IMG/VR virus record: IMGVR_UViG_3300044730_001503
Coordinates: 1-47,020 of that record
DNA from: a virus
DNA: 47,020 nt
Reading direction: 5' to 3' (one strand)
The position numbers and the translations under genes are program-made. Shown here one piece after another: positions 3,550 through 46,805 of the stretch; positions within the stretch are counted from its first letter, which is position 1, and each line of letters opens with the position of its first letter. A model generated the notes under the pieces. The model did no database searches. It had not been told where the DNA came from and was given only the letters and a program-made list of their open reading frames with translations.

Positions 3550-4965
3550 TCAGCTGTTGCCGTGTAGGTGGAGAATGTTGGTCAAGCGGTAGTATTGGTT
3601 CAAGCCAGCGGTGAGGCTGTCACCGTCTGGAGTGTTTTGACCGTTGAGAACGAAGGGGTTCGCAACGACGCCATAACGGGTCTTGAAGGCAATACGTGGT
3701 TGGAAAGTGTTAGGATCGACTGCACGTACCATTTGTAGCGGAACGTATGGGCAGTAGAAGATACCAGCATCGTATGGCGATTCGCCCTTATAACCGGCGC
3801 AGAAGAAGTTATATCCTGCTGGGCTATATGGATCGATGTATACGCGAATCTTGCCACTGAGGATACCGGCAAAGGTGCTTTGGGTATCATCAACGTTGAG
3901 TTGTGGCATGATTGCTGGGCTGAGGCTCATGAAGCCAGACATAGCGAGGGCAGCTGCGGTATCGCTATCGCAGATGATGAAGTTGCCCTTACCACGGCGG
4001 GTTTCCTTGGCGATTTGGTTGCACTCACGCTCGATTTGGAAGCTGAGGCCACGGAAGCGTTCAGCCGACCAACGACCGTCAGAGTCAATCTCAAGATCGT
4101 ATGTGCCTGGGGTTGCGATATCTGGTTGTACTGAACCAGCTTTTGCGACGAAGTAGATGGTCTTGACGATTTCGCGGTTGATTTCAGCAAGAATTTCTGT
4201 GCTGAGAAGATTTGCGAGTTCGGCTTCGGCATCCAATCCGTGAACAGCCTTAAGATCTTGTGCCAATTCGACTGTGTAGTTGCTGGACAGAGCGCGAGTA
4301 CGAGCTTGTACGGCAACGCGGTCGATTGAGAAGGCCATTTGGTTCCAGTTTTGGTAAGCACCTGTGCTTCTGTTACCGATTCCTTCGCCGTTTGCAGTCA
4401 AGATACCACGTAGATTGGCAAGTTGAGCTCCGGTTGGCTTGATGGAGGCGGATGAACCATAGATTGCACCGAAACCAGCACACAAACCATTATAACCGGT
4501 TGGCAAGGTCCATCCAGAACCACCGTAAGATGGTTGTGGCTCTTGGAACATAGCTTCGGCATAGTTGGCATTGCCATAGGTGTAACCACCAGTACCGTAG
4601 TATTGGTAATTGGCGCGCATAGCAAAGATGAGGCCGGTTGGGGCAGTCATTGGCTGAACGCCGCAGATGTCATAGGCCATCAAGTTTGGCATGGAACGAC
4701 GGAGCAACGAAATAAGTACTGGATCGTAACCAGAAACTTGGCCGTTGTTGTAAAGAGTGGACGAAGATGGACCACCGAGGTTGGAGTTGCCACCCATGTC
4801 TTCGATCAAGTGTTGTTGACGAAGAGCTTGCTCTTGGTTTTCGAGTAGGACGGCAGTGACCTTCTTACGGTAATCGTCTTGGATTTTTGGAAGGGCTTCG
4901 TGATTTAAGACAGGGTCCCACTTTTCTGTGAGAATGTCATATGGTGTATTGTCTTGAAAATTCAT
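3550..4965 (-). CDS. gp23: Major capsid protein gp23
   Basis: 471 residues, shorter than T4 gp23 (521). It forms the hexamers of the prohead shell. Recognisable family segments are 'DPVLISLLRRSMPNLMAYDICGVQPMTAPTGLIFAMRA' near 80-120 and the C-terminal 'RYGVVANPFVL'. An N-terminal propeptide is expected: L53-I54-E55 followed by D56 fits the (L/I)-x-E cleavage rule of the T4 prohead protease. The Shine-Dalgarno AGGAGA lies just upstream of the ATG, behind an ACTAAATA late box. The gene is richer in GC than most neighbours, as expected for a very highly expressed gene. Confidence 0.97.
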   Translation of the reverse strand: MNFQDNTPYDILTEKWDPVLNHEALPKIQDDYRKKVTAVLLENQEQALRQQHLIEDMGGNSNLGGPSSSTLYNNGQVSGYDPVLISLLRRSMPNLMAYDICGVQPMTAPTGLIFAMRANYQYYGTGGYTYGNANYAEAMFQEPQPSYGGSGWTLPTGYNGLCAGFGAIYGSSASIKPTGAQLANLRGILTANGEGIGNRSTGAYQNWNQMAFSIDRVAVQARTRALSSNYTVELAQDLKAVHGLDAEAELANLLSTEILAEINREIVKTIYFVAKAGSVQPDIATPGTYDLEIDSDGRWSAERFRGLSFQIERECNQIAKETRRGKGNFIICDSDTAAALAMSGFMSLSPAIMPQLNVDDTQSTFAGILSGKIRVYIDPYSPAGYNFFCAGYKGESPYDAGIFYCPYVPLQMVRAVDPNTFQPRIAFKTRYGVVANPFVLNGQNTPDGDSLTAGLNQYYRLTNILHLHGNS

Positions 4966-5014: not shown

Positions 5015-6040
5015 TTACAATTTCTTGTGAATACGACCTAGTGCACCAACATAGCTCTCAACCAAAGTTGAGGGGGTTTGCTTTACCGGGGCAAAGGTTT
5101 GTTCGGGTTCAGTTACACGGGCCGGAACTTTATTGTATAGATAATTTTCGCGGATTGCAACTAGTTTTTGTCTATACTCGTCTGGGCTACCGAAATTGAC
5201 GTTTTCCATCAAGTTTTGTAGCTTGGCGACTTGGGTATCTGCAAGATCTCTTGTTTCTGCAACAAAGATGCCAGCACACTCGGTGAGTGAAACTTCTTTC
5301 TTGAGGTCCATGTTGTGCTTGACGGCTTCATTGAGCTTGGCTTCAAGTTCACGGTTAGAAGCATATAGTTCGTCAAGAACATTGTACTTCTCTGCAGGAA
5401 CATCGATGTAGTGGTTCTCGAAGAGGTTCTTGAGGCCGCTGATGAAGTTTTCGGCAATTTGGGTCTTGACGCCCTGTTCGACAGCAACAGCGTTCTCGGT
5501 CATCCACTCTTCAACGACATAATCCAGATAATCATCAACCTTCTCGACTAATGATTCGGTTACGTCATTGAGATAGGTTTTGACATTGCTGTCCATGTTT
5601 TCTGCAATGATGGAAACTGACTTCTCTACGCGGTCGGTGACTGCAGCTTCAAAGATTGCTTCAAGTTGAGAAATCAAGGAAGCATCGACATCTTCTCCCA
5701 AGAGAGATACCAATGCGCCTCTGAATTCGCGCTTAACTTCTTCAGTGGTTTCATATGGCATAGAAGTTGGAGTTGCCTCAACTTCTTCTTCGCCTTCTTC
5801 CATTTCTTCGGTTTCTTCCATCTCTTCACCCTCATCCTCAGATGCCATGGGTTGCATTGGGGCTTGCATACCACCAATTGGGGTTCTGGCTTGTGCCATT
5901 GCAGCTCCACCAAAATCAATTGGAGGAGAGATCATAGATCCCCTGCCGGTAGCATCCATATCGCCCGCATTGTTTGAGATGGCATAGCTTGCCATTGGGG
6001 CGTTTTGTTCTGAAATATTCTTCTTTCTTGTGTTTTTCAT
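5015..6040 (-). CDS. gp22: Prohead scaffold/core protein gp22
   Basis: 341 residues; T4 gp22 is 269. It is the main internal scaffold around which the gp23 shell assembles and is later degraded by gp21. Evidence is position (between gp21 and gp23), strong acidity (an E/M/T-rich stretch around residues 68-95), and a long helical, coiled-coil-like body with many (L/I)-x-E sites. The N-terminal 60 residues, rich in Gly, Pro and Met, are longer than in T4. The family is poorly conserved, so synteny carries most of the weight. A Shine-Dalgarno AAGGA precedes the ATG. Confidence 0.88.
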   Translation of the reverse strand: MKNTRKKNISEQNAPMASYAISNNAGDMDATGRGSMISPPIDFGGAAMAQARTPIGGMQAPMQPMASEDEGEEMEETEEMEEGEEEVEATPTSMPYETTEEVKREFRGALVSLLGEDVDASLISQLEAIFEAAVTDRVEKSVSIIAENMDSNVKTYLNDVTESLVEKVDDYLDYVVEEWMTENAVAVEQGVKTQIAENFISGLKNLFENHYIDVPAEKYNVLDELYASNRELEAKLNEAVKHNMDLKKEVSLTECAGIFVAETRDLADTQVAKLQNLMENVNFGSPDEYRQKLVAIRENYLYNKVPARVTEPEQTFAPVKQTPSTLVESYVGALGRIHKKL

Positions 6041-6079: not shown

Positions 6080-6814
6080 TTATGGAATAACGTGGCCAAG
6101 ACCACGATACTTTACGATTTCTTCTTTTCTTTTGGCTGCTTGCAATGCTTCATCGGTTTCGCGGTTTGGATCATACCCATAACGCTTGGTTTTTTCATCT
6201 CCAGAAAGCACAGGCTTGACCCAAGGAGATCCAGCACCCTGGAAAGCCAGTTTTTCTGCATTTGTTCCTATCTCAGATACGTTTGCATCAAAAACCTCAG
6301 AACCAGAAATTTTTGCAATATTTCTTAAAAGTGTTGAAGTTAGCCCGGGGACAGCCATGAAAGCCTTACTTGTTGCTGCTCTTGCTATCTGACCCAAAAA
6401 ATTATTAGGAAGCTTTGAAAGCATGCCGCTCGCACCAATGTAATTCCCCAATGCCTGAGCACCATACTTGTCGAGAGTATCGGCAACAGTTTTTGCAGTC
6501 TTACCTATTGCATACGCGCCAGCAGCGGTAGCCAATCCCAGATCATCATCCTCGTAATCACCGAACAAAACTCTTGAATCTCTTCCGGTATCTTTCTTCT
6601 TTCCTACAGGACCGCCGACACCATAGTTGCCACCCTCTGGCGTTTGCGAACGTAACATTTTTTGTTCTTTTGGAGCGGTTCCCGTAAATCCAGATCGAAT
6701 ACTTGAAAAGTCTTGATCAAAATTTTCAAATATTTCAGCACCAAGTGGATAATCAATATTTTCTGAAACAATCTTCAGAAGTAGATCTTGGGTGGATGGA
6801 TCAAAAGAATTCAT
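6080..6814 (-). CDS. Unknown protein inside the capsid gene block
   Basis: 244 residues, between gp21 and gp22, where T4 has no gene. The start codon overlaps the stop of gp21 (shared base 6814), so it belongs to the same transcript. The N-terminal third is acidic. The middle (about 95-170) is rich in Ala and Gly with mild hydrophobic helices ('LGLATAAGAYAIGKTAKTVADTL'), and the C-terminus is basic and charged. No catalytic motif is visible. Its position suggests a prohead or core component, and it has several (L/I)-x-E-like sites, but I do not recognise it. Confidence 0.75.
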   Translation of the reverse strand: MNSFDPSTQDLLLKIVSENIDYPLGAEIFENFDQDFSSIRSGFTGTAPKEQKMLRSQTPEGGNYGVGGPVGKKKDTGRDSRVLFGDYEDDDLGLATAAGAYAIGKTAKTVADTLDKYGAQALGNYIGASGMLSKLPNNFLGQIARAATSKAFMAVPGLTSTLLRNIAKISGSEVFDANVSEIGTNAEKLAFQGAGSPWVKPVLSGDEKTKRYGYDPNRETDEALQAAKRKEEIVKYRGLGHVIP

Positions 6815-7458
6815 TAAAGTTTACGGAAATAATCGTTAAAGACTTTTACTATATTCTTATTCAAATCAGTCTTGGAGGATTCTCTAATAAGTTTCTTGGC
6901 CGCAGCTGCTTCTCTTTCTTGCCAGATTCCATCAATAAACATCCATTCGCGGCCTTCCATAATTCCATTGACGAAAGCATTTGGAGCAGAAGGATCGGCA
7001 ACGATATCGATTGCGGCCAACATAAAGTCTTCTTGAACTTCTTGATAGCCGTTCTTGGACTTTAAAGAACCCATTCCACGGCTGGATACTCCGAGTTGAG
7101 CGCCCTCTTCAATTAGATTTTTTACGATACGACCCATTGGGGTATCTAAAACTTTGGCCTTCCCATATACGGTATTGCCATCTTCGTTCAATTCCTTGAC
7201 GATGTGCGATACTCTATCCAAGTTTACGGTTGGCCCTGATGGGTGGTTTAGCTCACCTAAAGCACGACCTTTGTTCACATACTCAGTGATATAGCGCTTG
7301 CATTCCTTGAGTAAGGTTCCCTGTGGATAAATGCGGCCATTGCGATTCTTTACACCAGATTGCATGAAAACGCCTTCGATGAAATATGCTTTTTCACCGT
7401 TTCCGACGTTTTCCTTGATGTATTTTATGTCTTCATTGAGTTCTGTGATTAGTTTCAT
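6814..7458 (-). CDS. gp21: Prohead maturation protease gp21
   Basis: 214 residues; T4 gp21 is 212. This serine protease, with a herpesvirus-assemblin-like fold, cleaves head proteins after (L/I)-x-E during maturation. The expected catalytic elements are present: His72 in 'ELNHPSGP', Ser125/126 in 'LGVSSRGMG', and the conserved 'AAIDIVADPSAPNAF' (149-163). 'NRNGRIYP' near 38-45 is also a family signature. The start overlaps the stop of the preceding small gene (TAATG). Its cleavage rule matters for the leader peptides described at 36-46 kb. Confidence 0.96.
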   Translation of the reverse strand: MKLITELNEDIKYIKENVGNGEKAYFIEGVFMQSGVKNRNGRIYPQGTLLKECKRYITEYVNKGRALGELNHPSGPTVNLDRVSHIVKELNEDGNTVYGKAKVLDTPMGRIVKNLIEEGAQLGVSSRGMGSLKSKNGYQEVQEDFMLAAIDIVADPSAPNAFVNGIMEGREWMFIDGIWQEREAAAAKKLIRESSKTDLNKNIVKVFNDYFRKL

Positions 7459-8026: not shown

Positions 8027-9595
8027 TTACTGTCCTTCTGGTGGTATTCCTGCGGCTTGTTGTTGTGCAAGAAGTGCGGCTTGCTCTTGTTGCAACCTCG
8101 CACGATCTTCTGCCATTTCTTGTTCTAGTTCTTTCAATTCTTCTGGCAAATAACGCAAAATCTGTGTTTTGACGTATTTTGTTGAGAAATACTTTCCGAT
8201 GTAAGGTTCAACAAAAGAAAGCATCTTAATGCGCTCAGACAAAATTTCTGCTTCTTTGAGATCCCAGAAATAATTATCGGTATTGAATACAATCTTTATG
8301 TCACTCTTTAGCTCTTTCCAGTCGTCTTCTGTCATGACGCCCTTCAGAAGCAATTGAACTCGAAGTGTATCCATGAATAATTTTGAAAACTGGAAACGGA
8401 GTCTGTCAACAAATTTATAGAACTTTATTTCTTCTCTTGTAATTTCCGTTGAACGACCCATGTTAAAACCATTGGTTTCGGGTTGTAGACGGCTTAAAGG
8501 AACGTTTAAAGAACCGTATAATTTCTTTTTAAAATACTCTGCGTCTTCAATTTGTGAAAGTGATTGAGCACCCGGTAGTGTACTAATTTCTGTTCCACGA
8601 GAACCTTCTCTTCTTGGAAGCCAGTAATCTTCCAATACAGACATGAACTTTCTTTCGTCCCGAACTTCTCCGGTATCTTGGTTATAGATAAGTCGAGTGC
8701 GGAAACGGCTCATCATGTCTCGCATATATTGCTCGGCCTTTTGCTTTGGCAGCTGGCCAACGTCTACGTAGAATACTCTGCGCTCTGGCGCTCTTGCAAT
8801 ACGATAAACCAACAAAGCGTCTTCCATCTGACGCAACATGTTAAGTGGTCTAATTGCCTTATGCAGATATCCCAATACTCTCTTTGAGTTTAGATCAACG
8901 AGGCCAGATGGGACATATACAATGCTATCTAACGACAGATTTAAGCCCTGTGGGCCTGTCATTATATAACTGTCTTTATCCGTATTCGTATAAACGTAAA
9001 ATTCTTCGATTTCTTTGATCAATTGAACTGGGGGAGCATCACCGGGACCTTTCCCCATTTCTTTTTTAAGTTTTCTTACTTTCTTGATCTTAAGAGGGTC
9101 GATAGGAATCATTTCCTTTATTCCATCGGTTGGTAGATCTTTATCTATTACGATATTGTAATAAATTTTTGAATCAATATACCAGCGTCTAAATGTCTCG
9201 TAAGATCTATGATTAAAATCCAAAAGATGCAAGACTCTATCAAATTCTTTATAAATTTTTGTCTTAATATTTTCTGATATAGGACAATCATCTAGATTTA
9301 ATTTTACTGGTTTGTGGTCGCTGCCCGGAACAATTGCAGCATTGACAATTTCATCAATAGCATTGTCCAGCTCTGGGTATACAGACATATTTCTGTATTG
9401 AATTACGGATTGCTGCTCATCCCGCATGGTTGTGGCATAATCCAGAACCGTGCCAAAGAATCCACCTGCCTCAACCGTTACTGTGCCATCATATACTTCT
9501 GGAGCAGCAAAAGACTGCATGGCATTTTCATACTTGCCTTCTTTTGTATCTTTCTTCTTATTTCCAAATTCAAATCCAAATAATTCGATTTCCAT
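8027..9595 (-). CDS. gp20: Portal vertex protein gp20
   Basis: 522 residues; T4 gp20 is 524. Twelve copies form the portal ring through which DNA enters and leaves the head and on which the prohead starts. Family landmarks: 'YPELDNAIDEIVNAAIV' (about 75-91), 'PERRVFYVDVGQLPKQKAEQYM' (about 269-290), 'DYWLPRREGSRGTEISTLPG' (about 326-345) and 'LRFQFSKLFMDTLRVQLLLKG'. The C-terminus ends in a Gln/Glu/Ala-rich tail. It lies 3 nt downstream of the second tail-tube gene in the gp18-to-gp21 transcript. Confidence 0.97.
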   Translation of the reverse strand: MEIELFGFEFGNKKKDTKEGKYENAMQSFAAPEVYDGTVTVEAGGFFGTVLDYATTMRDEQQSVIQYRNMSVYPELDNAIDEIVNAAIVPGSDHKPVKLNLDDCPISENIKTKIYKEFDRVLHLLDFNHRSYETFRRWYIDSKIYYNIVIDKDLPTDGIKEMIPIDPLKIKKVRKLKKEMGKGPGDAPPVQLIKEIEEFYVYTNTDKDSYIMTGPQGLNLSLDSIVYVPSGLVDLNSKRVLGYLHKAIRPLNMLRQMEDALLVYRIARAPERRVFYVDVGQLPKQKAEQYMRDMMSRFRTRLIYNQDTGEVRDERKFMSVLEDYWLPRREGSRGTEISTLPGAQSLSQIEDAEYFKKKLYGSLNVPLSRLQPETNGFNMGRSTEITREEIKFYKFVDRLRFQFSKLFMDTLRVQLLLKGVMTEDDWKELKSDIKIVFNTDNYFWDLKEAEILSERIKMLSFVEPYIGKYFSTKYVKTQILRYLPEELKELEQEMAEDRARLQQEQAALLAQQQAAGIPPEGQ

Positions 9596-12035: not shown

Positions 12036-13691
12036 TTATGTAGGGTACCACACAGCTCCTCCTGAAACAAATTCTTCTCCATCCTCGTCATTTCTTTGGT
12101 CTGGTATGAATAAAATGTTATCATCTTCTGGCTTGGATGCTTCTTCGTAGTTAAATTTTGCCTGTTCTACCAGATCAGCAAAATATTCTTGTCGAGTTAG
12201 CCAAGCAAAGAACACCAAACTCATTACCAAATCGTCATGCTGGCCGTCATCAGCCTTGTAGGTGTTTGATTTAGATACGAAAGACATCAATTCGGATATG
12301 ATTCTTTCATCATTTAATAAAATTTTATCTTCTTCAATCAATCTTTTTAAGATGGCGCAACCTATTTTTTTAGTTTGGGCAGTAGTACGAATACCCATTT
12401 CATTTTTACCAACACCACCAAAGCCTTGTGATAGGATTTGGCCCTTTCTTCCAAGAACCTTTGTCATCAACACATTTTCATATTCTAGATCAGTATGCAG
12501 AATATTTGAAACCTGGCCACCAAGATCATTGGTTTCGATCAACACATAAGCATTATTATATGCTTTTGCAGCGTTTAATATTACTGTAGGAAAATTGAAT
12601 GGGCTTATTGTATTATTTCTATACGATGCAACAACTTTATATGGAGCTTGTGATCCTTCAATTACGGTAAATGCCGAATAGTCTACTCCTTGGCCTCTGG
12701 AAACATCGGCCTGCAAAAAATAGGTTTTGTCTTTCTGTGGTGTTTCATAAACCCTATAACCCTCTGCATTTTCGCTTATTGGTTCTTCGGGAGCTAGTAA
12801 ATTTAATTTACTGGAAGAAATTAGGGTGTTGGAAGATCCCAAAAAGCTGCAGCCATATTCTTGTTCAAATTGATCTGCACTTGTATTGGCTATCTGCTCC
12901 GCTGCCCAGTTGTCATCACGTAGTTTAGGACTGCCGGGACTAATTGGGGTATCTCTCCAAGTTACTTCGACTGGAACGAATTTATTTTTTAACTTATGAC
13001 CTTCTGGTCTTTTGGCATCTACCCAAAGTTTATGAAAATGATTCATACCGTTTGGCGTAGAAACAATGATAAGCTTTGTGGTGGTACCTGCGGAAATGGT
13101 TGGATAGGTAGATGTATAGAATTCTTCTGCTACGTGACTCGGCAAGAAGGCGTATTCGTCCAACAGAAGTAGGTTATAAGAACCACCACGGATAGCCGAT
13201 GAGCTTGTTGCATCGCACATCACTCTAGAGCCGTTTTCTAATTTAAAACTGGTTTTATTCCATTCTACCACGCCCTGCTGGAGGAAGTGCGGCAAGTTTT
13301 CATATGCCAGTTGCAATTTGGAAAAAAGTTCTTCTTTAGCTGTTTTTAAACGGTTAGCGAGAATTGCTACGTTAACGCTTTGATTGAATGTTATGTAATG
13401 GCAAATATAGCTAGTAACACACGTTGATTTACCACACTGGCGGGGCCACTTGGAAATGGTAAAGCGACTGTCATGAATTGCATTAACAAAGTTTTTTTGA
13501 TATTGATATAGATTAAAGGGGACAATTCCTTTGTCCAGAGTCTTTACTTTGATGTATTTTTCACAAAAGTATACTGGATCTTTTGCACATTTAACATATT
13601 CTTTTAGTTGTTCTTCTGTATATTGAAGCTCAACACCGGGCAGTTTTAGCTTTGGATTATTTCTATAACCCTCTTTATGTATTTGAGCCAT
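12036..13691 (-). CDS. gp17: Terminase large subunit gp17
   Basis: 551 residues; T4 gp17 is 610. It is the ATP-driven packaging motor and headful nuclease. ATPase domain: Walker A PRQCGKST (83-90) and Walker B LLLLDEYAF (D178, E179). Nuclease domain (RNase H fold): an acidic residue in 'QADVSRGQGVDYSAF' (D329), E385 in 'IETNDLGG', and the pair D485-D486 in 'QHDDLVMSL'. All expected catalytic acids are present. It overlaps the end of gp16 by 17 nt, as often seen for this pair. Confidence 0.97.
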   Translation of the reverse strand: MAQIHKEGYRNNPKLKLPGVELQYTEEQLKEYVKCAKDPVYFCEKYIKVKTLDKGIVPFNLYQYQKNFVNAIHDSRFTISKWPRQCGKSTCVTSYICHYITFNQSVNVAILANRLKTAKEELFSKLQLAYENLPHFLQQGVVEWNKTSFKLENGSRVMCDATSSSAIRGGSYNLLLLDEYAFLPSHVAEEFYTSTYPTISAGTTTKLIIVSTPNGMNHFHKLWVDAKRPEGHKLKNKFVPVEVTWRDTPISPGSPKLRDDNWAAEQIANTSADQFEQEYGCSFLGSSNTLISSSKLNLLAPEEPISENAEGYRVYETPQKDKTYFLQADVSRGQGVDYSAFTVIEGSQAPYKVVASYRNNTISPFNFPTVILNAAKAYNNAYVLIETNDLGGQVSNILHTDLEYENVLMTKVLGRKGQILSQGFGGVGKNEMGIRTTAQTKKIGCAILKRLIEEDKILLNDERIISELMSFVSKSNTYKADDGQHDDLVMSLVFFAWLTRQEYFADLVEQAKFNYEEASKPEDDNILFIPDQRNDEDGEEFVSGGAVWYPT

Positions 13692-36294: not shown

Positions 36295-37113
36295 ATGAAA
36301 TCATTCAAAACATTTTTACTAGAGCAAAATACTAATGATTATACTACTGCCCTATATAGGGCTCTTATCAGCGCCGAACATCGAGGTGTTGTTAAAGATC
36401 CTACAAAATTTGATAAAAAACTTTATATAAGAACAAAATCCAAACCAAAGGATGATGTATCTACTGCATATGGTCCTGGCCAAATCACGGGGACCACGAT
36501 AGAAGATGCACGCAAACGGCGTCCTGAAAATTTTTCTAAAGACGATACTGAATTTTTAAATGCCTTTGTTGAACAGGGCAAAAAAATGAAAGCTGCCAAG
36601 CCCGATGATAAAATCTATGGTTATGGGTGTGAAGGTGATTTGTGTGATGAAAAATATCATCAACCATATGAGCGCGCTGCAATAGGAGTTTTGAAAACAA
36701 AAATGCAAGACGCTAAAATTGACCCAACGCAAGAATTGACCCCCGACAATTTAACTAAAACAATACGTAGATGGCGTGGAGCTCCAGAAAATGATGAGAC
36801 AACAAAATCTGGTAAAGTAATAAAAGGTGATCCCGAATATTATAAAATTGTTAGAGACAAATATGAAAAATATCTTGCTTCAAATAATTCACCAAAAACT
36901 CCAACACCGGAACCGGTAACACCAGAACCAAAACAGCAGCCAAATACAAATACGGAAACTGCACCTCCAAGCAATGAATATACAATTGCGCCCGGAGATA
37001 CATTCTGGGAACTTGGTGGTGGTACACCAGCGGGTGTAAAAAAACTCCAAGACTTAAATCCTGGAGTTAACCCGAATAAAATTAAACCGGGCCAAAAAAT
37101 TAAAAGAGGTTAA
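36295..37113 (+). CDS. LysM-tailed muramidase/transglycosylase-like protein with capsid-targeting-like leader
   Basis: 272 residues from ATG 36295 (MKSFKTFLLEQ). A start at 36244 would add a hydrophobic 17 residues and is the main alternative. Glu28 in 'LISAEHRG' and 'STAYGPGQITGTTI' (57-69) resemble the catalytic glutamate and 'AxGxxQI' motif of lysozyme-like transglycosylases. Residues about 200-227 are a Pro/Thr/Gln linker and 228-271 form a LysM ('YTIAPGDTFWEL...LNPG...IKPGQKI'). It could degrade the cell wall at lysis or at infection. The leader ends L-L-E, a gp21-type cleavage site, which points to head packaging. Confidence 0.7.
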   Translation: MKSFKTFLLEQNTNDYTTALYRALISAEHRGVVKDPTKFDKKLYIRTKSKPKDDVSTAYGPGQITGTTIEDARKRRPENFSKDDTEFLNAFVEQGKKMKAAKPDDKIYGYGCEGDLCDEKYHQPYERAAIGVLKTKMQDAKIDPTQELTPDNLTKTIRRWRGAPENDETTKSGKVIKGDPEYYKIVRDKYEKYLASNNSPKTPTPEPVTPEPKQQPNTNTETAPPSNEYTIAPGDTFWELGGGTPAGVKKLQDLNPGVNPNKIKPGQKIKRG

Positions 37114-37783: not shown

Positions 37784-38818
37784 TTATATTTCGTGATTTT
37801 CAAATACGTTGTTTATGGTTCGGTTTACCTTGATCAGCGAACCGCGCTCATATAGTTGAGGCAAATTAAAAGCCCCGACATAAGAGCAAGCCGAGCGCAA
37901 ACCACCAAGAATTTCCTGTATCGTGTGTTGTACGGGTCCACGGTATGGTACTTCAACTGTTCTTCCTTCCGATGCTCTGTAATCGGAAAGTCCGCCATTG
38001 TACTTTTCATTTGCAGTTTTGCTGCTCATTCCGTAGTGCAACATTCGGAGCTCTCCATGCTCACCATGTCTAATTTCACCACCGCACTCATCATGACCGG
38101 CAAATACACCACCTGCCATAACAAAGGCAGCACCAGCCACGAATGCTTTTGCAAAATCTCCAGGATGTACTATTCCGCCGTCAGCAACGATCCCAATACC
38201 TAACGCTTCGGCTGTTTCCACACACTCTAGCACCGCTGAGAGCTGGGGATACCCGACTCCCGCCACTCGCCGGGTCAGACACATCGACCCCGATCCGATT
38301 CCCACCTTTACCATATCGGCGCCAGCCTCCGACAACGCCACGACCCCCTCGTGGGTTACGACATTCCCTGCAATCAAAATTGACTTCGGCCATTTTTCTC
38401 TCACTTTCTTTGTAAATTTATGAAACTCGGTCATGTAGCCATTAGCCACATCTACACAAACAAACGTTGGATCTTTTATTTCTGAACTGTCAACAAACAA
38501 CTTGCTATCGGCATCCAGACCAAGAGTCAAAGAAACATATTTTTCTTTCTCTGGGTGTGCGCTGACAAAATTGGAATAGTAATCCCCGCCTTTCTTTAGG
38601 CAGGTTATGATCTTGAATTCAGATAGAGCGAGTGCCATCTTGTGGGTTCCGACCGTTGACATGTTTGCTGCCATTACGGGAACGCCGCTCCAATACGAAC
38701 CACAATTAAATGTGGTACCAACCTCAAGGTTTACGTCTTTGCGTGATTTTACATCACTGAGGTTTGGCTTAATAAGAACGTCGGAGTAATCGAACTTTGG
38801 CTCGTAGTTTTCAATCAT
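37784..38818 (-). CDS. guaC: GMP reductase
   Basis: 344 residues from ATG 38818 (MIENYEPKFDYSDVLIKP); E. coli GuaC is 347. It converts GMP to IMP with NADPH. Signatures: 'FDYSDVLIKPNLS' opening, 'VCVDVANGY' (about 120-128), the catalytic cysteine loop 'GIGSGSMCLTRRVAGVGYPQLSAV' (Cys180, Thr182), 'VADGGIVHPGDFAKAFVAGAAFVMAGG' (211-237) and 'YYGMSS'-like 'HYGMSSK'. There is no CBS domain, which separates it from most IMP dehydrogenases. 'GVGYPQLSAV' after the cysteine also fits GMP reductase. Phages are not usual carriers, so this is probably a host-derived metabolic gene that shifts purine pools. Confidence 0.9.
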   Translation of the reverse strand: MIENYEPKFDYSDVLIKPNLSDVKSRKDVNLEVGTTFNCGSYWSGVPVMAANMSTVGTHKMALALSEFKIITCLKKGGDYYSNFVSAHPEKEKYVSLTLGLDADSKLFVDSSEIKDPTFVCVDVANGYMTEFHKFTKKVREKWPKSILIAGNVVTHEGVVALSEAGADMVKVGIGSGSMCLTRRVAGVGYPQLSAVLECVETAEALGIGIVADGGIVHPGDFAKAFVAGAAFVMAGGVFAGHDECGGEIRHGEHGELRMLHYGMSSKTANEKYNGGLSDYRASEGRTVEVPYRGPVQHTIQEILGGLRSACSYVGAFNLPQLYERGSLIKVNRTINNVFENHEI

Positions 38819-38826
38819 GGCCAAAT

Positions 38827-38854
38827 ATAATAACACACCACCAAAGTCCGTCAA
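38827..38854 (-). promoter_or_regulatory. Early sigma70-type promoter for guaC
   Basis: TTGACG, 16 nt, TATTAT, then 8 nt to the ATG at 38818. Again there is no ribosome binding site between promoter and start codon. Confidence 0.68.
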
Positions 38855-40203: not shown

Positions 40204-40208
40204 AAAAA

Positions 40209-40220
40209 TATTTATAAATA
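40209..40220. promoter_or_regulatory. Divergent overlapping late promoters
   Basis: The palindromic core TATTTATAAATA holds TATAAATA on both strands: minus box 40209-40216, plus box 40213-40220, sharing the four bases TATA. Each is exactly 5 nt from its ATG (40203 minus, 40226 plus). The whole 22-nt intergenic gap is thus two promoters. Confidence 0.8.
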
Positions 40221-40225
40221 ATTTT

Positions 40226-41650
40226 ATGAATTATATTGCCTCGTTATACAAAACACGTTGCCAAAAACTGGCCGAAGAAATTGAGATTATTAAAAACAAA
40301 ATTAATATTCTTGAAGCAGAAAAAAGGGAATACGACGCTGCTGGATCTCCCCTTCTAGTTTCTACCAGAGTTCCTACAAGTAAAAAGTTGACATATGATC
40401 CGCACAATCTCATCGGTTCGGATAGGCTTGTGGTTGGTATGGATGCTATGGAACCAGAGCATGTTGAAAGACTCGCAACAACCCTGAGGCAGTATCCCAT
40501 TTCGGGACCGAATCCGTCTTCAGATCCATTTAAACTAATTGCAGATGTCAAGGGCAGAGTACAAAGAAATATCGAATATGGATTGGATAGAGCAGAGTCT
40601 TTACCAGAGCTTGCTGCAAGAAGTGCACAATGGTATGTCGGTGCCAACAAAATTTCTAATCGTTTTGGTAAAAGATTTGGTCACCCTGAACATGTGGCTG
40701 CAGGTGTTCTAGCTGCACTCTCACCACAAAAAGATTGGTATCAAAACACATCTTTGGGTGAACGTGTAATGAAAATTCACAAAGAACATTCTAATGCTGG
40801 ATGGTCACCTGAAATGGATGCTGCCGCAAAAAGATTCTTTGATGAGACAAATCCAAAACATGCTGCTGGTTATGCAGCAATCAAAGGAAAAACACTTTCA
40901 CAAATACAAGATCCAATACACGCAGCAATGTGGATCCGTGCTTATGATGAAGGCCATCATCCAAGACATTTTAGAACTGTTACACCAGAAGGTGATTTTG
41001 GCGAACATATGTTAACTGCAAAAAATGAAAGAGCAACAGCTGCATGGGGTTCTTTCAATGAAATTGGAAATGCTGTAAAAATTATTCGTTCTCAAGGAAA
41101 CATGAACGTAATAAGCAGAGCTCTCGGCAACCAACACAAAGTAAGAAGTTTTTATAATAACATCCTTCAACCAAACAATCCAGATAGACCAGACGTTACC
41201 ATCGACACTCATGCAATCGGTTCTGGATTAGCCAATCCCGCATTGGCAGGTTCGAGTGAAGAGGTATCACTTGGACTTGGAGGATCACCGAGATCTGCAA
41301 TGACAGGAATAGGTGGTTCATATCCTCTATTAAAGGATGTAGTTACTAAAGTTGGTCAAGAAAGAAATATAATTCCAAGCGCAGTACAGAGTATCATATG
41401 GGACGAAAAGAGAGCTGCCGTACCACCAAAAGGAAAAGGTGTAAAAGATCGAAAGCAAGCCGTTGCCAAAGCTTGGGACGCATTTAAAGCCGGTGCTTTG
41501 TCAGATAAAGATGTTTTAGACATTTACGGATCAACATTCCCAGAAGGCCAACTCCCAACTTGGGCAAATACAAAAACACAAGGTGCAGTAAGCACTTTCG
41601 AATCAGTATCTCACAAAATAAAGAAATTAGTTAAATACCTAAAAGGATAA
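40226..41650 (+). CDS. HhH-glycosylase-like protein with shared N-terminal leader
   Basis: 474 residues. The leader MNYIASLYKTRCQKLAEE is the divergent member of a four-protein set (see findings) and holds L15-A16-E17. A coiled-coil stretch follows to about residue 37. The body has 'HVAAGVLAALSPQKDWYQN' (about 154-172), 'GNQHKVRSFYNNILQP' and 'PDVTIDTHAIGSGL' (about 324-337). The 'ALSPQ..W..N', 'KV.SFY.NI' and 'VTIDTHA' elements occur in a phage family whose layout recalls helix-hairpin-helix DNA glycosylases. DNA cleavage or base removal is inferred, not shown. Confidence 0.65.
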   Translation: MNYIASLYKTRCQKLAEEIEIIKNKINILEAEKREYDAAGSPLLVSTRVPTSKKLTYDPHNLIGSDRLVVGMDAMEPEHVERLATTLRQYPISGPNPSSDPFKLIADVKGRVQRNIEYGLDRAESLPELAARSAQWYVGANKISNRFGKRFGHPEHVAAGVLAALSPQKDWYQNTSLGERVMKIHKEHSNAGWSPEMDAAAKRFFDETNPKHAAGYAAIKGKTLSQIQDPIHAAMWIRAYDEGHHPRHFRTVTPEGDFGEHMLTAKNERATAAWGSFNEIGNAVKIIRSQGNMNVISRALGNQHKVRSFYNNILQPNNPDRPDVTIDTHAIGSGLANPALAGSSEEVSLGLGGSPRSAMTGIGGSYPLLKDVVTKVGQERNIIPSAVQSIIWDEKRAAVPPKGKGVKDRKQAVAKAWDAFKAGALSDKDVLDIYGSTFPEGQLPTWANTKTQGAVSTFESVSHKIKKLVKYLKG

Positions 41651-41652
41651 TC

Positions 41653-42522
41653 ATGGACTACCTAACAAACTATTACAAAAATCAAGCAGAACAGTTACAA
41701 GAACAATTAAATCTTTTGCAAAGCAAATTGAAGTCTTTGCAAGAAGATGTTTTCAATCCTTCGTGGGGCGGTCCTGGTATTCCTGATACCGAAGCAGGTA
41801 CAATTGAACTAGAAAATATGGCCAGACAAAAGAAAAGAACATCTTTGTTTGGTCCAGTAAAGCAATCCAAGGAATGGGAAGAATTAAACGCCGAGATCGA
41901 AAGACGACGCGGTAGAGGTAGATCTAAACCGGCTCCAGAACCAGCCCCCGCACCAGAACCAGAAGCAGTTCTGGCCAGATGGCCAGAACCGGCTTATGAA
42001 CCGGAAACAAGAAAACCTTCTCCAGAAGAATTCAATGCTGAAGCTCCTGGACACCAGGAAGCAGGAGAAGCAGATTTTGATGAAGGTGGTGACTATACTT
42101 CTTCCGGCGGTTACGCTCAGAGCCCAACTTCATGGGCAAATCGGTATCCCGGTAAGTATCCAGCACCACAAAAACCCAAATCAAACAAACCTTCTCGTCC
42201 AGAATTTAATTATGAAGTTCTTGGACACCAGGAAGCAGGAGAAGTAGATTATGACGAGGGTGGTGACTATACTTCTTCCGGTGGTTATGTTCAAAGCCCA
42301 ACTTTCTGGGCAAATCGGTATCCCGGTAAGTATACTACACCACAGCAACCAAAAGCAGTAGCACCCGCTGCTGTTCGAGGCGAATCTGAAATGCCAGAAC
42401 AAACGGGTGGTGCCGACCAACCAGACTGGGTTCTTCGTTGGGCCAAAAAGCTAGGCGATACCCCCGAAAAGATCGAGGGTATGCGTCAACAGGCAGTGAG
42501 ACAGATAAGATCAGAAAAATAA
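41653..42522 (+). CDS. Leader-bearing protein with two 58-residue repeats
   Basis: 289 residues. Leader MDYLTNYYKNQAEQLQEQ is followed by a coiled coil to about residue 33. Residues 90-110 are a Pro/Ala/Glu-rich stretch. Two 58-residue repeats then contain 'GHQEAGE(A/V)D(F/Y)DEGGDYTSSGGY' and 'WANRYPGKY'. The C-terminus ends 'DWVLRWAKKLGDTPEKIEGMRQQAVRQI'. AAGGATAATC before the ATG gives it a ribosome binding site, and it follows the previous gene after 2 nt. It looks like an extended, acidic, structural or DNA-binding cargo protein. Not recognised. Confidence 0.65.
   Translation: MDYLTNYYKNQAEQLQEQLNLLQSKLKSLQEDVFNPSWGGPGIPDTEAGTIELENMARQKKRTSLFGPVKQSKEWEELNAEIERRRGRGRSKPAPEPAPAPEPEAVLARWPEPAYEPETRKPSPEEFNAEAPGHQEAGEADFDEGGDYTSSGGYAQSPTSWANRYPGKYPAPQKPKSNKPSRPEFNYEVLGHQEAGEVDYDEGGDYTSSGGYVQSPTFWANRYPGKYTTPQQPKAVAPAAVRGESEMPEQTGGADQPDWVLRWAKKLGDTPEKIEGMRQQAVRQIRSEK
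42015..42362 (+). repeat. Two tandem 174-nt coding repeats
   Basis: The units repeat with a period of 174 nt. The parts from about 42048 and 42222 are nearly identical, notably 'ggtggtgactatacttcttc' in both. Several differences are silent third-position changes, so selection on the protein has kept them alike. Confidence 0.85.
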
Positions 42523-42531
42523 AAATATTAT

Positions 42532-42560
42532 TTGATTTATTGGTTGTTACAAGTTATAAT
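42532..42560 (+). promoter_or_regulatory. Sigma70-type promoter for the HNH gene
   Basis: TTGATT, 17 nt, TATAAT, then TATTTGA and the ATG at 42568. A start of transcription 7 nt after the -10 box would fall on the A of ATG. Confidence 0.68.
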
Positions 42561-42567
42561 TATTTGA

Positions 42568-42957
42568 ATGAATTTGTTTGAAGTACTAATTCAAGAAACC
42601 AAAAAAGACAATCGCCGCCCCTATATTCTGGGAAGCGGCGATTGTCGCAATTATAAAGAGATTATAAGAAAAAGAATACAGAATCAAAGATCTAATGTAG
42701 AAGCACAAAATTTAGTAAATGAATTAAAATGCACAATAGGATGCGAAGACTGTGGATGGAACGAAATACCTTCAATACTGGACTTCCACCATATAAAAAA
42801 AGATCCTAAAAACAGAAAATTATCTAAATGCAACAGTCTGAGACAAGTGGTAAGAGAACTGCCCAAAGGGGTGTTTTTATGCAGAAACTGCCACGCAAAA
42901 AGACACTATGACCCAAATTCCAAAAGGGTTCGTTATAATAAAGATGAATTTAGATAA
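42568..42957 (+). CDS. HNH homing-type endonuclease
   Basis: 129 residues. The zinc-HNH core is complete: Cys59-x2-Cys62 ('CEDCGW'), 'LDFHHIKKDP' (His74, His75), and 'CRNCHAKRH' (Cys105, Cys108, His109). This is a free-standing HNH nuclease of the kind that spreads in phage genomes. The opening MNLFEVLIQET is also compatible with a capsid-targeting leader ending I-Q-E. A 12-bp inverted repeat lies in codons 14-27 (42607-42646). Its promoter is sigma70-type, unlike the late boxes of its neighbours. Confidence 0.85.
   Translation: MNLFEVLIQETKKDNRRPYILGSGDCRNYKEIIRKRIQNQRSNVEAQNLVNELKCTIGCEDCGWNEIPSILDFHHIKKDPKNRKLSKCNSLRQVVRELPKGVFLCRNCHAKRHYDPNSKRVRYNKDEFR
42607..42646 (+). repeat. 12-bp perfect inverted repeat within the HNH gene
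   Basis: GACAATCGCCGC (42607-42618) and its exact complement GCGGCGATTGTC (42635-42646) flank a 16-nt loop that can add a CCC/GGG pair. A hairpin this stable (12 bp, 8 GC) just inside a coding region is rare by chance. Confidence 0.88.
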
Positions 42958-42960
42958 ATA
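42953..42960 (+). promoter_or_regulatory. Late promoter GATAAATA, 5 nt before start
   Basis: GATAAATA overlaps the HNH stop codon and is followed by ATTTT and the ATG at 42966. Confidence 0.7.
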
Positions 42961-42965
42961 ATTTT

Positions 42966-43940
42966 ATGCAATCATTTAAACAATTTTTATTGAACGAGGC
43001 ACCACTCTCTCCAGCCACTCAAAATGAAACAAAGGCTCTTCTTGCGCAAATGGCTAAAATGGATGCCGACAAGGCTGCTAGACAAAATAAAGTCAATCCA
43101 TCAACTGGACGCAGTTACATGGATACTGCGAACCAGGCAACCCAGGCAAGCCTAGACAGAGAGCGTTCAAGAGAAAATTTTGATGAATTGGCAAAGACAA
43201 TGCCAAATCAAGCAGCTCGCGCAAGATTCAACACGCAATCCGCCGCAAGAAGCGCCGCACCCGGTGGAATGAATGCTAATAGCGATATGGCATCCTTCGG
43301 TGCTCTTTCGCAAGAAGATCAAAACAGAGTCGCATCAACACAGAGCACCGCAAGATTGCAATCAATGCGCCAAGCCCAGTACAGCACGTCTTCGCAAAAT
43401 GTTGCTCAAGGTCGTGCTGGTCAGGCAATGGGTGGAAACAGAGCCTCCGGAATAAATGCGATCAACGCAGAATTAGAAGACAGAAGAACCAATGCAATGG
43501 GCGGAAAAGATGCTGCCGCAAGTTATGCAAGAACATGGCAAGAAGATCCAACCAGCCTGAGAACTCAGCAAAGCATGGCAGTCAGAACTCCAAGAGAAAG
43601 ACTCGCCATGATGGATGCCATGAAAGAAGAAGGCTTGAGACAAATCCGTGAAAAGGGCAAACTGGATCCAAAGCACGTAGAAATGGTAAATCAATTCGGT
43701 AAGTCTGCACCAAAGGAAACTGAAACTTCAGCTGCATTTGGAAGAGCCTCAAGAGAACCTATTGGAGGTTCTAAACCAGCACCCACAACCACTACGGCTT
43801 CTCAAAGTTCTTCGACTGCTCCAGCACCTCAAAGTTCCTCAACCACTCCAGCACCAAAGAAAACCTATGCGGAGATCAAGAGAGAGCAACAGGCAAGAAT
43901 GACTCAGTCTGCATTACGTGGCGGAAGCAGATTCGCCTGA
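42966..43940 (+). CDS. Probable internal head protein, Ala/Gln/Ser-rich, with capsid-targeting-like leader
   Basis: 324 residues. The leader MQSFKQFLLNEAP is close to the T4 internal-protein leader MKTYQEFIAEA, with L9-N10-E11 as candidate gp21 cut site. The mature part is rich in Ala, Gln, Arg, Ser and Met ('ARFNTQSAARSAAPGGMNANSDM'), with no predicted globular core. It ends in a Ser/Thr/Pro/Ala linker ('TTTTASQSSSTAPAPQSSSTTPAPKK') and a basic tail. Such basic, disordered proteins suit packing with DNA inside the head. The function is unknown; location in the virion is inferred. Confidence 0.65.
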   Translation: MQSFKQFLLNEAPLSPATQNETKALLAQMAKMDADKAARQNKVNPSTGRSYMDTANQATQASLDRERSRENFDELAKTMPNQAARARFNTQSAARSAAPGGMNANSDMASFGALSQEDQNRVASTQSTARLQSMRQAQYSTSSQNVAQGRAGQAMGGNRASGINAINAELEDRRTNAMGGKDAAASYARTWQEDPTSLRTQQSMAVRTPRERLAMMDAMKEEGLRQIREKGKLDPKHVEMVNQFGKSAPKETETSAAFGRASREPIGGSKPAPTTTTASQSSSTAPAPQSSSTTPAPKKTYAEIKREQQARMTQSALRGGSRFA

Positions 43941-43967
43941 TTTCATTCAGTAATTTGAATAAATTTT

Positions 43968-43994
43968 TCGGGCCTCGCAAAGGCCCGATTTTTT
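43968..43994. terminator. Bidirectional terminator
   Basis: 8-bp stem TCGGGCCT / AGGCCCGA with loop CGCAA, preceded by AAATTTT and followed by T6. It lies between two convergent genes. Confidence 0.9.
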
Positions 43995-44685
43995 ATTTTT
44001 CGGGTTTGTGAATCAAAACCCACGAATCCTTGTCCCGAGTCTCCCCGTAGACATGCTTTTCGTGCTCCGGATCATCTGGATTGTAATCCGGAATATTCGT
44101 CACCACCCCGGGAATGTCCCAGCCACTCGCATGCCTGTTGACCGCACTAACCGTCCCCTGTCTTGCAATATTCCTCCAGATATTCCGACCTCCCGGAGAC
44201 TGAGTCTTGTCGCTCACAATCGGAAGATCCAGATGCCGTGCTGCCAGCTCATACACCCTGCTCGGAAGGTTATCAACGAAAGAAATGTCACCCCTGTGCT
44301 CGAATCTGGGAGCTGCGCCGGTTGTCAAGTACTTCCCTACGAATTTCTTTCCGATGTGTCGGAAGTCTCCGGGCTCAAGTTCCTTGAATGGCACAAATCC
44401 GACAGGCTTTCCTTCATGGTGAACAACGAACGCATGGTGGACCGTGGTATTTTCTTTTCTGCCCTTTCCGTACCCTACACCCGGCAGAACTTCCGTTCTC
44501 TTACTATGGAAGACCTCATAAGGACCGATTTCCCCGGCCTTCGAGAACTCGGTAGCAGTCTTCGGGTCCGAGTGCAGCTGACTCAATTTTTCTAAATTTT
44601 GTCTGAAGTCCCAATCCGAGTTTGCTATCAGCAAAGGTTCGAGCATTGGAAAGTCTTCCGAGATATACTGAATGAATCTTTTCAC
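43993..44685 (-). CDS. Unknown protein with capsid-targeting-like leader
   Basis: 230 residues from GTG 44685 (MKRFIQYISEDFP); this start puts a late box at the standard 5 nt. The ATG at 44712 lies inside the promoter. The leader ends I-S-E, a gp21-type site. The body has 'HHAFVVHHEGKPVGFVPFKELEPGDF' and 'LDLPIVSDKTQSPGGRNIWRNIARQ' (near 165-190), recalling unnamed GNAT-like phage proteins with 'SDxxQSPGxxxxW'. Acyl transfer is a guess. The gene is clearly richer in GC than those around it, which suggests recent acquisition. Confidence 0.6.
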   Translation of the reverse strand: MKRFIQYISEDFPMLEPLLIANSDWDFRQNLEKLSQLHSDPKTATEFSKAGEIGPYEVFHSKRTEVLPGVGYGKGRKENTTVHHAFVVHHEGKPVGFVPFKELEPGDFRHIGKKFVGKYLTTGAAPRFEHRGDISFVDNLPSRVYELAARHLDLPIVSDKTQSPGGRNIWRNIARQGTVSAVNRHASGWDIPGVVTNIPDYNPDDPEHEKHVYGETRDKDSWVLIHKPEK

Positions 44686-44690
44686 AAAGA

Positions 44691-44705
44691 TATTTATTAT
44701 AAATA
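44691..44705. promoter_or_regulatory. Divergent late promoters
   Basis: Minus box AATAAATA (44691-44698) serves GTG 44685 and plus box TATAAATA (44698-44705) serves ATG 44711. They share one base. Each is exactly 5 nt from its start codon. Confidence 0.75.
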
Positions 44706-44710
44706 TTTTC

Positions 44711-44986
44711 ATGAATTACTTAACAAATTATTACAAAAATTTATGTGAACAACTTCAAGAGAGATTGAATATTCTTGAAAATAAATTCGACAGAAAAGCA
44801 GAGATGGCAGCCGACCGGGTGTGGAACAGCAGAAAGCCTTTGTCACAAATGACCGCAGAAGAGGCGTACCAGCACGGTCAAGATCACGCCCTTACTCCGG
44901 GTGTGACTCCTCATCCGGATATGTTTAAGAATCCTTATTTTTATGCGGGATTCCACGATACGCTACATCCAAAGATGGAAGAGTAA
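44711..44986 (+). CDS. Small leader-bearing protein
   Basis: 91 residues from ATG 44711 (MNYLTNYYKNLCEQLQER). The leader and coiled coil (to about residue 25) are shared with three other proteins and hold L15-Q16-E17. The rest, 'MAADRVWNSRKPLSQMTAEEAYQHGQDHALTPGVTPHPDMFKNPYFYAGFHDTLHP', is a short unknown domain rich in aromatic and His residues. It has its own late promoter and terminator, forming a single-gene unit. Confidence 0.7.
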   Translation: MNYLTNYYKNLCEQLQERLNILENKFDRKAEMAADRVWNSRKPLSQMTAEEAYQHGQDHALTPGVTPHPDMFKNPYFYAGFHDTLHPKMEE

Positions 44987-45019
44987 CCATAAAATAACGT
45001 AAAAATTTTACAGTAAACT

Positions 45020-45052
45020 TTCTGGGCTCCAAACGGGCCCAGAATTTTTTTT
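45020..45052 (+). terminator. Terminator after the 91-residue gene
   Basis: 8-bp stem TTCTGGGC / GCCCAGAA followed by T8. The run of Ts continues into the first copy of the GGCATATG repeat. Confidence 0.85.
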
Positions 45053-45069
45053 GGCATATGGCGTGTTTT
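45035..45069 (+). repeat. GGCATATG intergenic repeat, copy 1
   Basis: GGGCCCAGAA, a T run, then GGCATATGGCGTGTTTT. It begins inside the terminator stem. Part of a four-copy family in non-coding DNA at 45.0-46.1 kb. Confidence 0.75.
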
Positions 45070-45170
45070 GCCTTCAAGGGGCTCCAGACCTAAAGGAGGC
45101 TCTGGGACCCTAAACCAACCAAAGAATCGCTCTCCGTCAATCGTAGGGCTCTACAGAAGGGTTTTGGAGG

Positions 45171-45210
45171 GCTCCGGGTCCCGAAAATTTTTAAGGGCAT
45201 ATGGTGTTTT
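45171..45210 (+). repeat. GGCATATG intergenic repeat, copy 2
   Basis: GCTCCGGGTCCCG, AAAATTTTTAA, then GGGCATATGGTGTTTT, ending 10 nt before the late box at 45221. The 118-nt stretch before it (45053-45170) has no gene I can support; it repeats 'gggctc' elements. Confidence 0.75.
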
Positions 45211-45220
45211 TAAAAAATTT

Positions 45221-45228
45221 TATAAATA
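45221..45228 (+). promoter_or_regulatory. Late promoter TATAAATA, 5 nt before start
   Basis: Perfect box, then TTCTC and the ATG at 45234. No Shine-Dalgarno sequence. Confidence 0.78.
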
Positions 45229-45233
45229 TTCTC

Positions 45234-45713
45234 ATGCACTACCTGACAAATTATTATAAAAATCTATCTGAACAACTTCAAGAGAAAGTAAATTATCTTG
45301 AAAAATTATTAAATGAAAGTGAACCCAATCCACGCGAAAAATCCTGGTATAGACACTATGATATTGTAGACTCAATTATTAGACATCATGTTTTTGGGTC
45401 CAAATACAAACCAGTCACAAAGGATATAACTGCAGTACAAGATGTAACTGCAAAAACTATAAAAAATATTCTGGACAAACATCCAGAGGCTCCATTCAGA
45501 AATCCGGGCCCAGCAATCCAAGCGATTCGCCAACATGTAATTGATGGAAGCGATGAGGTTTCAGATAGAGTGATGAACAGAGAAGGAAAAAATATCCGAA
45601 ACATTGTGGATAGGGGAGAGTATAAAGATGTACTCCAAAAAACTGCAGAAGATTACTCAGCAGAGCTTGAAGATAAAGTTAACAACCACATAGGCGTAAT
45701 GAAAGACGAATAA
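45234..45713 (+). CDS. Leader-bearing helical protein
   Basis: 159 residues from ATG 45234 (MHYLTNYYKNLSEQLQEK). The leader and coiled coil (to about residue 28) are shared with the set; L15-Q16-E17 and L26-N27-E28 are candidate cleavage sites. The remainder is helical and charged ('IRHHVFGSKYKPVTKDITAVQDVTAKTIKNILDKHPEAPF', 'EDYSAELEDKVNNHIG'). No domain recognised. As a single-gene unit it matches the layout of the 91-residue gene. Confidence 0.7.
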   Translation: MHYLTNYYKNLSEQLQEKVNYLEKLLNESEPNPREKSWYRHYDIVDSIIRHHVFGSKYKPVTKDITAVQDVTAKTIKNILDKHPEAPFRNPGPAIQAIRQHVIDGSDEVSDRVMNREGKNIRNIVDRGEYKDVLQKTAEDYSAELEDKVNNHIGVMKDE

Positions 45714-46341: not shown

Positions 46342-46426
46342 AATAACACAGCAGCCCCTCTCCCGCCCCATCATTCGACCCGTAAAATGGGTAGGGGGCA
46401 TTGGGTTCGGGGGCTGCTGCGCCCTT

Positions 46427-46455
46427 ATTGTACTGCGCGACCCGCGCTCTGTCAA
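46427..46455 (-). promoter_or_regulatory. Strong sigma70-type promoter, leftward
   Basis: TTGACA, 17 nt, TACAAT on the minus strand, the -35 box touching the stop codon of the 117-residue gene. It transcribes into the gene-free stretch and the opposing strong promoter at 46255. Confidence 0.72.
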
Positions 46456-46805
46456 GAGGCGGGAGTCTCCTCCTTCATGATCCGCACGAGTTGCGCCGCG
46501 TACTTTTTCATCATCTTCCGGGCGTAGAACATCTGCTTCTCCGAGAGCGTTCCGCGCTTGATGGCCTGCGTGGCGAGGCTGCTTCCGAACTGGGCATCGA
46601 TGCCCGTGAAGCCGACCCCGTTGTGGTGGGTCGTTGCAGCGCTCTGCTGCTCGTCAGCCGTCTGACGCTTGTAGATCGTGATGAGCCCTTCGATGACGAG
46701 GTTATCGTCAGCGAGGAGGAGTTCGCGCATCAGGTCAGTTGCCTGCTTCGCGGGGGCGGTGATGATCATCTGAAAGGCGGCGGTGTTGTTGGTGGGCTGT
46801 GCCAT
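46452..46805 (-). CDS. Small GC-rich protein of unknown function
   Basis: 117 residues from ATG 46805 (MAQPTNNTAAFQMIITAPAKQATDLMRELLLADDN). A TTG start at 46868 would add 21 residues covering a promoter. The body is helical with 'VEGLITIYKRQTADEQQSAATTHHNGVGFTGIDAQFGSSLATQAIKRGTLSEKQMFYARKMMKKYAAQLVRIMKEE'; the 'RGTLSEKQMFYARKMMKKYAAQL' stretch looks like a small helical binding motif. GC content is well above that of the rest of the window. Two early-type promoters precede it. Not recognised. Confidence 0.65.
   Translation of the reverse strand: MAQPTNNTAAFQMIITAPAKQATDLMRELLLADDNLVIEGLITIYKRQTADEQQSAATTHHNGVGFTGIDAQFGSSLATQAIKRGTLSEKQMFYARKMMKKYAAQLVRIMKEETPAS

Follow-up and report, generated by a model that had tools for sequence, protein, structure and literature searches.

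Which proteins does a T4-like virus load into its head, and what marks them for loading? Proteins carried in phage heads act first in the new host, and few are known outside T4 and some other phages. The question is raised by IMG/VR virus record IMGVR_UViG_3300044730_001503, positions 1–47,020 (the window), in which four proteins, starting at 40226, 41653, 44711, and 45234, open with a common N-terminal leader. A preliminary description of the sequence took this leader for a second class of capsid-targeting leader that precedes varied cargo and is cut by the prohead protease gp21. The leader, termed class B here, is very probably a capsid-targeting propeptide removed by gp21, of a new class that is T4-like in its working and different in sequence.

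The class-B leader and its cargo

The common opening was confirmed at open reading frames (ORFs) 40226–41650, 41653–42522, 44711–44986, and 45234–45713. A search with the 44711 leader matched the other three at E values of 1.4e-9, 3.4e-9, and 8.3e-5 and gave no further match in the 47-kb record. Pairwise, synonymous codons differ at 2–8 of the shared leader residues, so the protein sequence is conserved and the leader is not a fresh DNA repeat. Its consensus, MNYLTNYYKNLxEQLQEKVNxLExLLNE, is an amphipathic helix of 23–31 residues in which conservation is high up to residue 22–28, and M1, Y3, Y8, L15, and L22 are near invariant. The domains behind it are unlike, as had been described: one is DUF7178/HhH-glycosylase-like, the second protein (289 residues) holds two copies of the 58-residue repeat reported earlier, and the other two are unknown domains.

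A four-row leader alignment matched 76 loci in IMG/VR (labelled L0xx). An iterated profile gave 186 hits on these loci and the window, corresponding to 153 distinct proteins in which the leader is almost always N-terminal. Single linkage sorts the cargoes into 57 families and a stricter rule into 76; the leader is thus not confined to one orthologous family, and such a restriction, named in the preliminary description as refuting its proposal, was looked for and not found. Large contigs (70–137 kb) carry 2–9 copies, with the genes in tandem. Among 20 leader-bearing contigs of at least 50 kb, 14 encode gp23 and the same 14 encode gp21; the six with neither presumably lack the head region because they are fragments. 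The association proposed earlier, of one leader with many different domains in genomes that encode gp21, is thus present.

Two observations concern particular cargoes. The L033 protein (6447–7748, + strand) begins with a class-B leader and contains a second, class-B-like one near residue 144, and the part after the second is a separate protein with another leader class (the third class, below) in L048; by this comparison, it is two units fused. One cargo family carries dockerin/EF-hand-like GDYNGDGxVDGADL motifs (PF00404, best E 3e-8; L013, L031, L046, L062, and L072).

Leader exchange and the predicted cleavage site

Cargoes were compared with every other ORF in the loci, and cross-class pairs were counted at E ≤1e-5. 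Three leader classes take part in exchanges: class B; class A, which is T4-type (MKSFKQFLxE/, with a slash for the predicted cut here and below); and a loosely defined third class (MSYSFFPNDF..PNLQDQAFLMKQKQ.NE/, also given as MSYSFFPNDF..NLQDQ, and MFKD..FSNNLQDAA..E/). The cleavage glutamates share one alignment column in 26 of 36 cross-class homologous pairs, which are not all independent: many come from a cargo that begins with GLKKAL, and six different cargoes have an exchange at the junction. MKSFIQYLQE/SGLKKALDTGD (L018, class A) pairs with MDYQAQYYKNLCEQLQGRINLLE/AGLKKALSTGN (L061, leader ending in NLLE), and MKKFKEFLRE/AVENWDEQLAQ (L025) pairs with ..EKQYLTE/VENWDEQIAV (L041). A trio is formed by MQSFKQFLLNE/APLSPATQNETKALL of window 42966, MDYLSNYYKNLCEELQEKINLIE/AELSKKTKDDSKALL of L005, and MFKDHLIFSNNLQDAANQLRLHE/ALSQKTKDDSKALL of L038. 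Some class-B proteins have the GLKKAL cargo directly after E23 and others after E28; its border is thus set by the glutamate and not by a fixed length. Cultured phages gave no match for the 42966 protein or the GLKKAL cargo.

Judged from these alignments, leader and cargo are separate evolutionary modules, and interchange with a T4-type leader on one cargo occurs as natural exchange. A capsid-targeting leader with varied cargo in gp21 genomes is supported as first proposed, but "second" was too few, since at least one further class shares the exchanges. The exchanges already contradict a reading in which the proteins are paralogues with an old common N-terminus, the rest having diverged beyond recognition, and the leader has no tag function. 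The tandem arrangement of several leader genes per genome would fit paralogues, but cargo homologues occur without a class-B leader (behind T4-type or third-type leaders, or inside long proteins), with homology from just after the leader, and this reading is most improbable.

Two further N-termini, MDNKxxRxFYWEVKDFM and KIxxYSWIHELNxAAMKAKLLxE/, recur in cargo-like proteins poor in [LI]xE (L045, L071, L075, and L077; L013, L021, L023, L040, L046, and L062) and may be further leader classes.

T4 gp21 cleaves after L/I-X-E, an event first observed as cleavage of a Glu-Ala bond (PMC9026906). The preliminary description placed the cut after E17, in an L15-x-E17 motif that the four window proteins do share; across the wider family, E17 is kept in 86 of 145 members and L22 in 139 of 145. 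The motif fares less well as a cleavage site. E17 is followed by K, Q, R, E, or H and, in 82 cases, never by A, G, or S, which follow E23 in 71%; conservation extends past E17; and no exchange junction falls there. Because of these exchange junctions, next-residue statistics, and extent of conservation, the cut is placed at residues 23–31 (Table 1). Cleavage after E17 is probably wrong, and capsid targeting with a cut at that residue is very improbable. An [LI]xE with P1 at residues 20–36 occurs in 140 of 143 unique leaders, versus 53 when shuffled, and the last [LI]xE sites of leaders cluster at 23, 27–28, and 31, often as LLE/A or LNE/A. An AlphaFold model of the 40226 protein has a helix at residues 2–34, a break with the lowest confidence at 32–38, and then a well-folded domain. 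The model of 45234 had a predicted local distance difference test score of 43 and was not used.

Past the leader, [LI]xE is avoided. Class-B cargo has 0.43 of the shuffled expectation (95% 0.32–0.52) and class-A cargo 0.50, whereas the value for 146 further long ORFs from these loci is 1.00. In class-B cargo [LI]xD, [LI]xK, [LI]xxE, and Ex[LI] are not depleted, and [VMF]xE is depleted mildly (0.74). When the proteins are split by hydrophobicity, the contrast between class-B cargo and other ORFs stays in the middle and upper strata. The window proteins of 41653, 43993, 44711, 45234, and 36295 have zero [LI]xE after the leader, and the window gp22 has many (Table 1); T4 gp22 is enriched (14 versus 5.4 expected). 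Such avoidance would protect loosely folded cargo adjoining active gp21, and it is supportive of targeting, not proof.

Probable capsid targeting and its alternatives

The HhH-glycosylase-like character reported for the 40226 cargo stands as a resemblance. VIA-align gave 3knt as best match to the cargo model, with a Z score of 9.2, below the certainty level for helical folds, and a root-mean-square deviation of 4.0 over 187 residues. AGOG, EndoIII-3, and OGG1 followed at Z 5–7, and Foldseek on the same cargo returned nothing significant. K305 and D327-T328-H329 are invariant in 33 sequences. Endonuclease III has a similar Lys and VDTH motif, and we take these residues of the cargo to be candidate catalytic ones. 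Relatives of the domain are found in many phages, in proteins of ~420–2700 residues (median open frame 791), with homology beginning just after the leader; in Roseobacter phage CRP-738, such a protein sits between the portal and coat genes. Portal-adjacent multidomain phage proteins are thought to be injected (PMC5512222). The 40226 cargo is like the polyvalent/MuF-type ejected proteins (PMC5512222) in that its domain recurs in phage proteins elsewhere, once between portal and coat; in those the domain lies inside a long protein, whereas 40226 is a single cargo behind a leader.

Capsid targeting is favored because the same cargo stands behind class-B, T4-type, or third-class leaders with aligned junction glutamates, because cargo avoids [LI]-x-E where other genes do not, and because the 40226-type domain is elsewhere part of long, once portal-adjacent, proteins. 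The module structure, exchange, site position, cargo site avoidance, and gp21 co-occurrence are read from sequence; by analogy with T4, core binding, cleavage, presence in the virion, and ejection would go with them. Late in infection, leader-bearing proteins would join the prohead core via the leader helix, and we infer that the attachment is to the scaffold core. The protease would then cut after the [LI]-x-E at the leader end, usually with A, S, D, or N as the next residue. The cut leader would depart along with other core fragments, and mature cargo would stay inside the head beside the DNA until ejection into the host.

Several results weigh against capsid targeting. Three of 143 leaders are without [LI]xE at residues 20–36. 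In the lowest-hydrophobicity stratum, other ORFs are depleted in [LI]xE as well; further leader-like N-termini are frequent among them. The folded head proteins of T4, a positive control, lack the avoidance (Alt has 7 versus 7.3 expected; gp23, gp24, and IPI likewise), so head proteins in general are not marked by it. The gp21/gp22 regions of the window and of 14 relatives contained no leader-like segment. No sequence relation was found between the class-B leader and the T4 capsid-targeting sequence (CTS), and the leader profile matched neither T4 nor three cyanophages.

The leader could otherwise be an uncleaved coiled-coil helix for docking or oligomerization at the neck, tail, or baseplate, its terminal [LI]xE being a by-product of the heptad pattern. 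The regularly spaced leucines of the leader, the one continuous helix of the 40226 model, and E17, which also falls in an L-x-E by helix pattern alone, would suit such a helix. Against it stand the T4-type leader on the same cargoes with its junction at the glutamate, the alanine bias after the second site, and the scarcity of [LI]xE in cargo, and docking is unlikely.

If capsid targeting holds, the system is in logic that of the T4 CTS. T4 CTS propeptides target internal proteins (IPs) and Alt; gp21 cuts them after L/I-X-E, and foreign cargo can be attached to them (PMC9026906, PMC7411985). Such propeptides have been suggested to let T4-like phages load various proteins (PMC9026906). Like the class-B leader, the CTSs of IPI, IPII, IPIII, and Alt are short N-terminal propeptides on unrelated cargo that end in [LI]-x-E, with gp21 in the genome. 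The CTS acts as a movable tag (PMC9026906), and T4-type leaders share genomes with the class-B leader and swap with it. T4 CTS leaders have 10–19 residues (PMC9026906), whereas the class-B leader has 23–31, with a core of YLTNYYKNLxEQLQE. It lies outside the CTS sequence family (MKxFxxFLxE), and the proteins picked by the T4-type pattern are not those picked by the leader profile. Head and ejection proteins of phage SPN3US likewise undergo maturation by a prohead protease, for which the three-residue motif is AXE (PMC7411985). The protease group and motif differ from those of the class-B/gp21 system. We know of no leader sequence common to SPN3US propeptides and the class-B leader.

From the sequences, what is new is a second leader unlike the T4 one in sequence, evidence that a third exists, naturally occurring swaps at the predicted cleavage site, and a catalogue of cargo. 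Full-text literature gave no description of the class-B leader, most subscription journals being outside coverage. Cultured phage records gave no credible match to the class-B or third-class leader with the low-complexity filter on, and the class-B leader was not found in bacterial genome contigs. A profile search of five whole cultured-phage records gave a sole weak, chance-like match, in Phage C48C1 just before gp23 (E 0.035); the idea of a scaffold mimic drawn from it was rejected, with no match in the gp21/gp22 regions named above. A match of one leader to phrog_1027 (E 0.012) was dropped, as it was not seen again in 73 proteins.

Tentatively, and with considerable doubt, a wider open head-loading system may be envisaged. 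It would have at least three, perhaps six, unrelated leader codes, each with its own prohead-core site; cargo would be movable between codes, with its own copy number, and exposed cargo would be free of [LI]-x-E beside active gp21. With a readable leader and an [LI]-x-E end rule, candidate ejected proteins can be listed from sequence alone; the list here holds >150 proteins, mostly of unknown families and one DNA-glycosylase-like. Natural leader exchange is evolutionary evidence for modular capsid targeting in T4-like viruses, and it supplies new tags with which proteins could be loaded into phage particles.

Head genes, promoters, and neighboring genes

By gene content, the window virus is T4-like: gp23, gp22, gp21, portal, and terminase are all encoded (Table 1). 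The gp21 gene lies where it had been described and matches the protease family. Cultured Kyanoviridae gp23s have ~52% identity to the window gp23. T4-type leaders are also found on two neighboring genes that the preliminary description did not list (42966 and 43993–44685).

Table 1. Features of the window; a slash marks a predicted cut
Feature	Position	Strand	Remark
gp23-like major head protein	3550..4965	-	candidate propeptide site LIE55/DMG
gp22-like head scaffold	5015..6040	-	13 [LI]xE sites
gp21-like prohead protease	6814..7458	-	Peptidase_S77, PF03420, E 1.3e-38
Portal	8027-9595		
Terminase	12036-13691		
ATAAATA, T4-late-promoter-like	40214..40220	+	5 nt upstream of 40226 start codon
Class-B leader, residues 1-30	40226..40315	+	predicted cut ILE30/AEK
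Cargo: DUF7178 domain, HhH-GPD DNA-glycosylase-like fold	40316..41650	+	
Class-B leader, residues 1-31	41653..41745	+	predicted cut LQE31/DVF
Cargo: remainder of protein with two 58-residue repeats	41746..42522	+	no further [LI]xE
ATAAATA, T4-late-promoter-like	42954..42960	+	5 nt upstream of 42966 start codon
T4-type (class-A) leader MQSFKQFLLNE/APL (continues APLSP)	42966..42998	+	
Cargo, homologues behind class-B (L005) and third-class (L038) leaders	42999..43940	+	
Protein with T4-type leader KRFIQYISE/DFP, GTG start	43993..44685	-	single [LI]xE
ATAAATA, T4-late-promoter-like	44699..44705	+	5 nt upstream of 44711 start codon
Class-B leader, residues 1-23	44711..44779	+	predicted cut ILE23/NKF
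Short cargo, no family assigned	44780..44986	+	
ATAAATA, T4-late-promoter-like	45222..45228	+	5 nt upstream of 45234 start codon
Class-B leader, residues 1-28	45234..45317	+	predicted cut LNE28/SEP
Cargo, no family assigned; L012, L024, L030 relatives likewise with class-B leaders	45318..45713	+	

ATAAATA, alike to the T4 late promoter, lies exactly 5 nt before the start codon in 68 of 149 class-B genes, and class-B transcripts would begin at or beside the ATG. In the window, the intervals 40204–40225 and 44686–44710 separate divergent gene pairs and hold back-to-back ATAAATA-like late promoters a few nt from each start codon, which suggests nearly leaderless late mRNAs.

An endolysin-like protein (36295–37113, + strand; phrog_380, E 5e-8) has an apparent internal Met start with the T4-type leader MKSFKTFLLE/QNT and no other [LI]xE. 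L012 has an identical N-terminus, and the product is possibly a virion-borne lysozyme. An HNH endonuclease-like gene (42568–42957, + strand; phrog_2255, E 8e-17) lies between cargo genes. A dehydrogenase gene (37784–38854, - strand; phrog_9582, E 4e-102) is by appearance a relative of IMP dehydrogenase/GMP reductase and a likely metabolic gene within a late region.

In 35 of the 76 loci (mean GC content ~40%), up to ~4 kb of >58% GC lies downstream of the leader/cargo cluster. These stretches encode short ORFs with sigma70-like promoters and repeated upstream units, and are homologous among contigs (L011, L012, L015, L018, L034, L055, L057, L066, and others; window 46401–46801). The arrangement resembles a GC-rich early and an AT-rich late region placed side by side in one virus.

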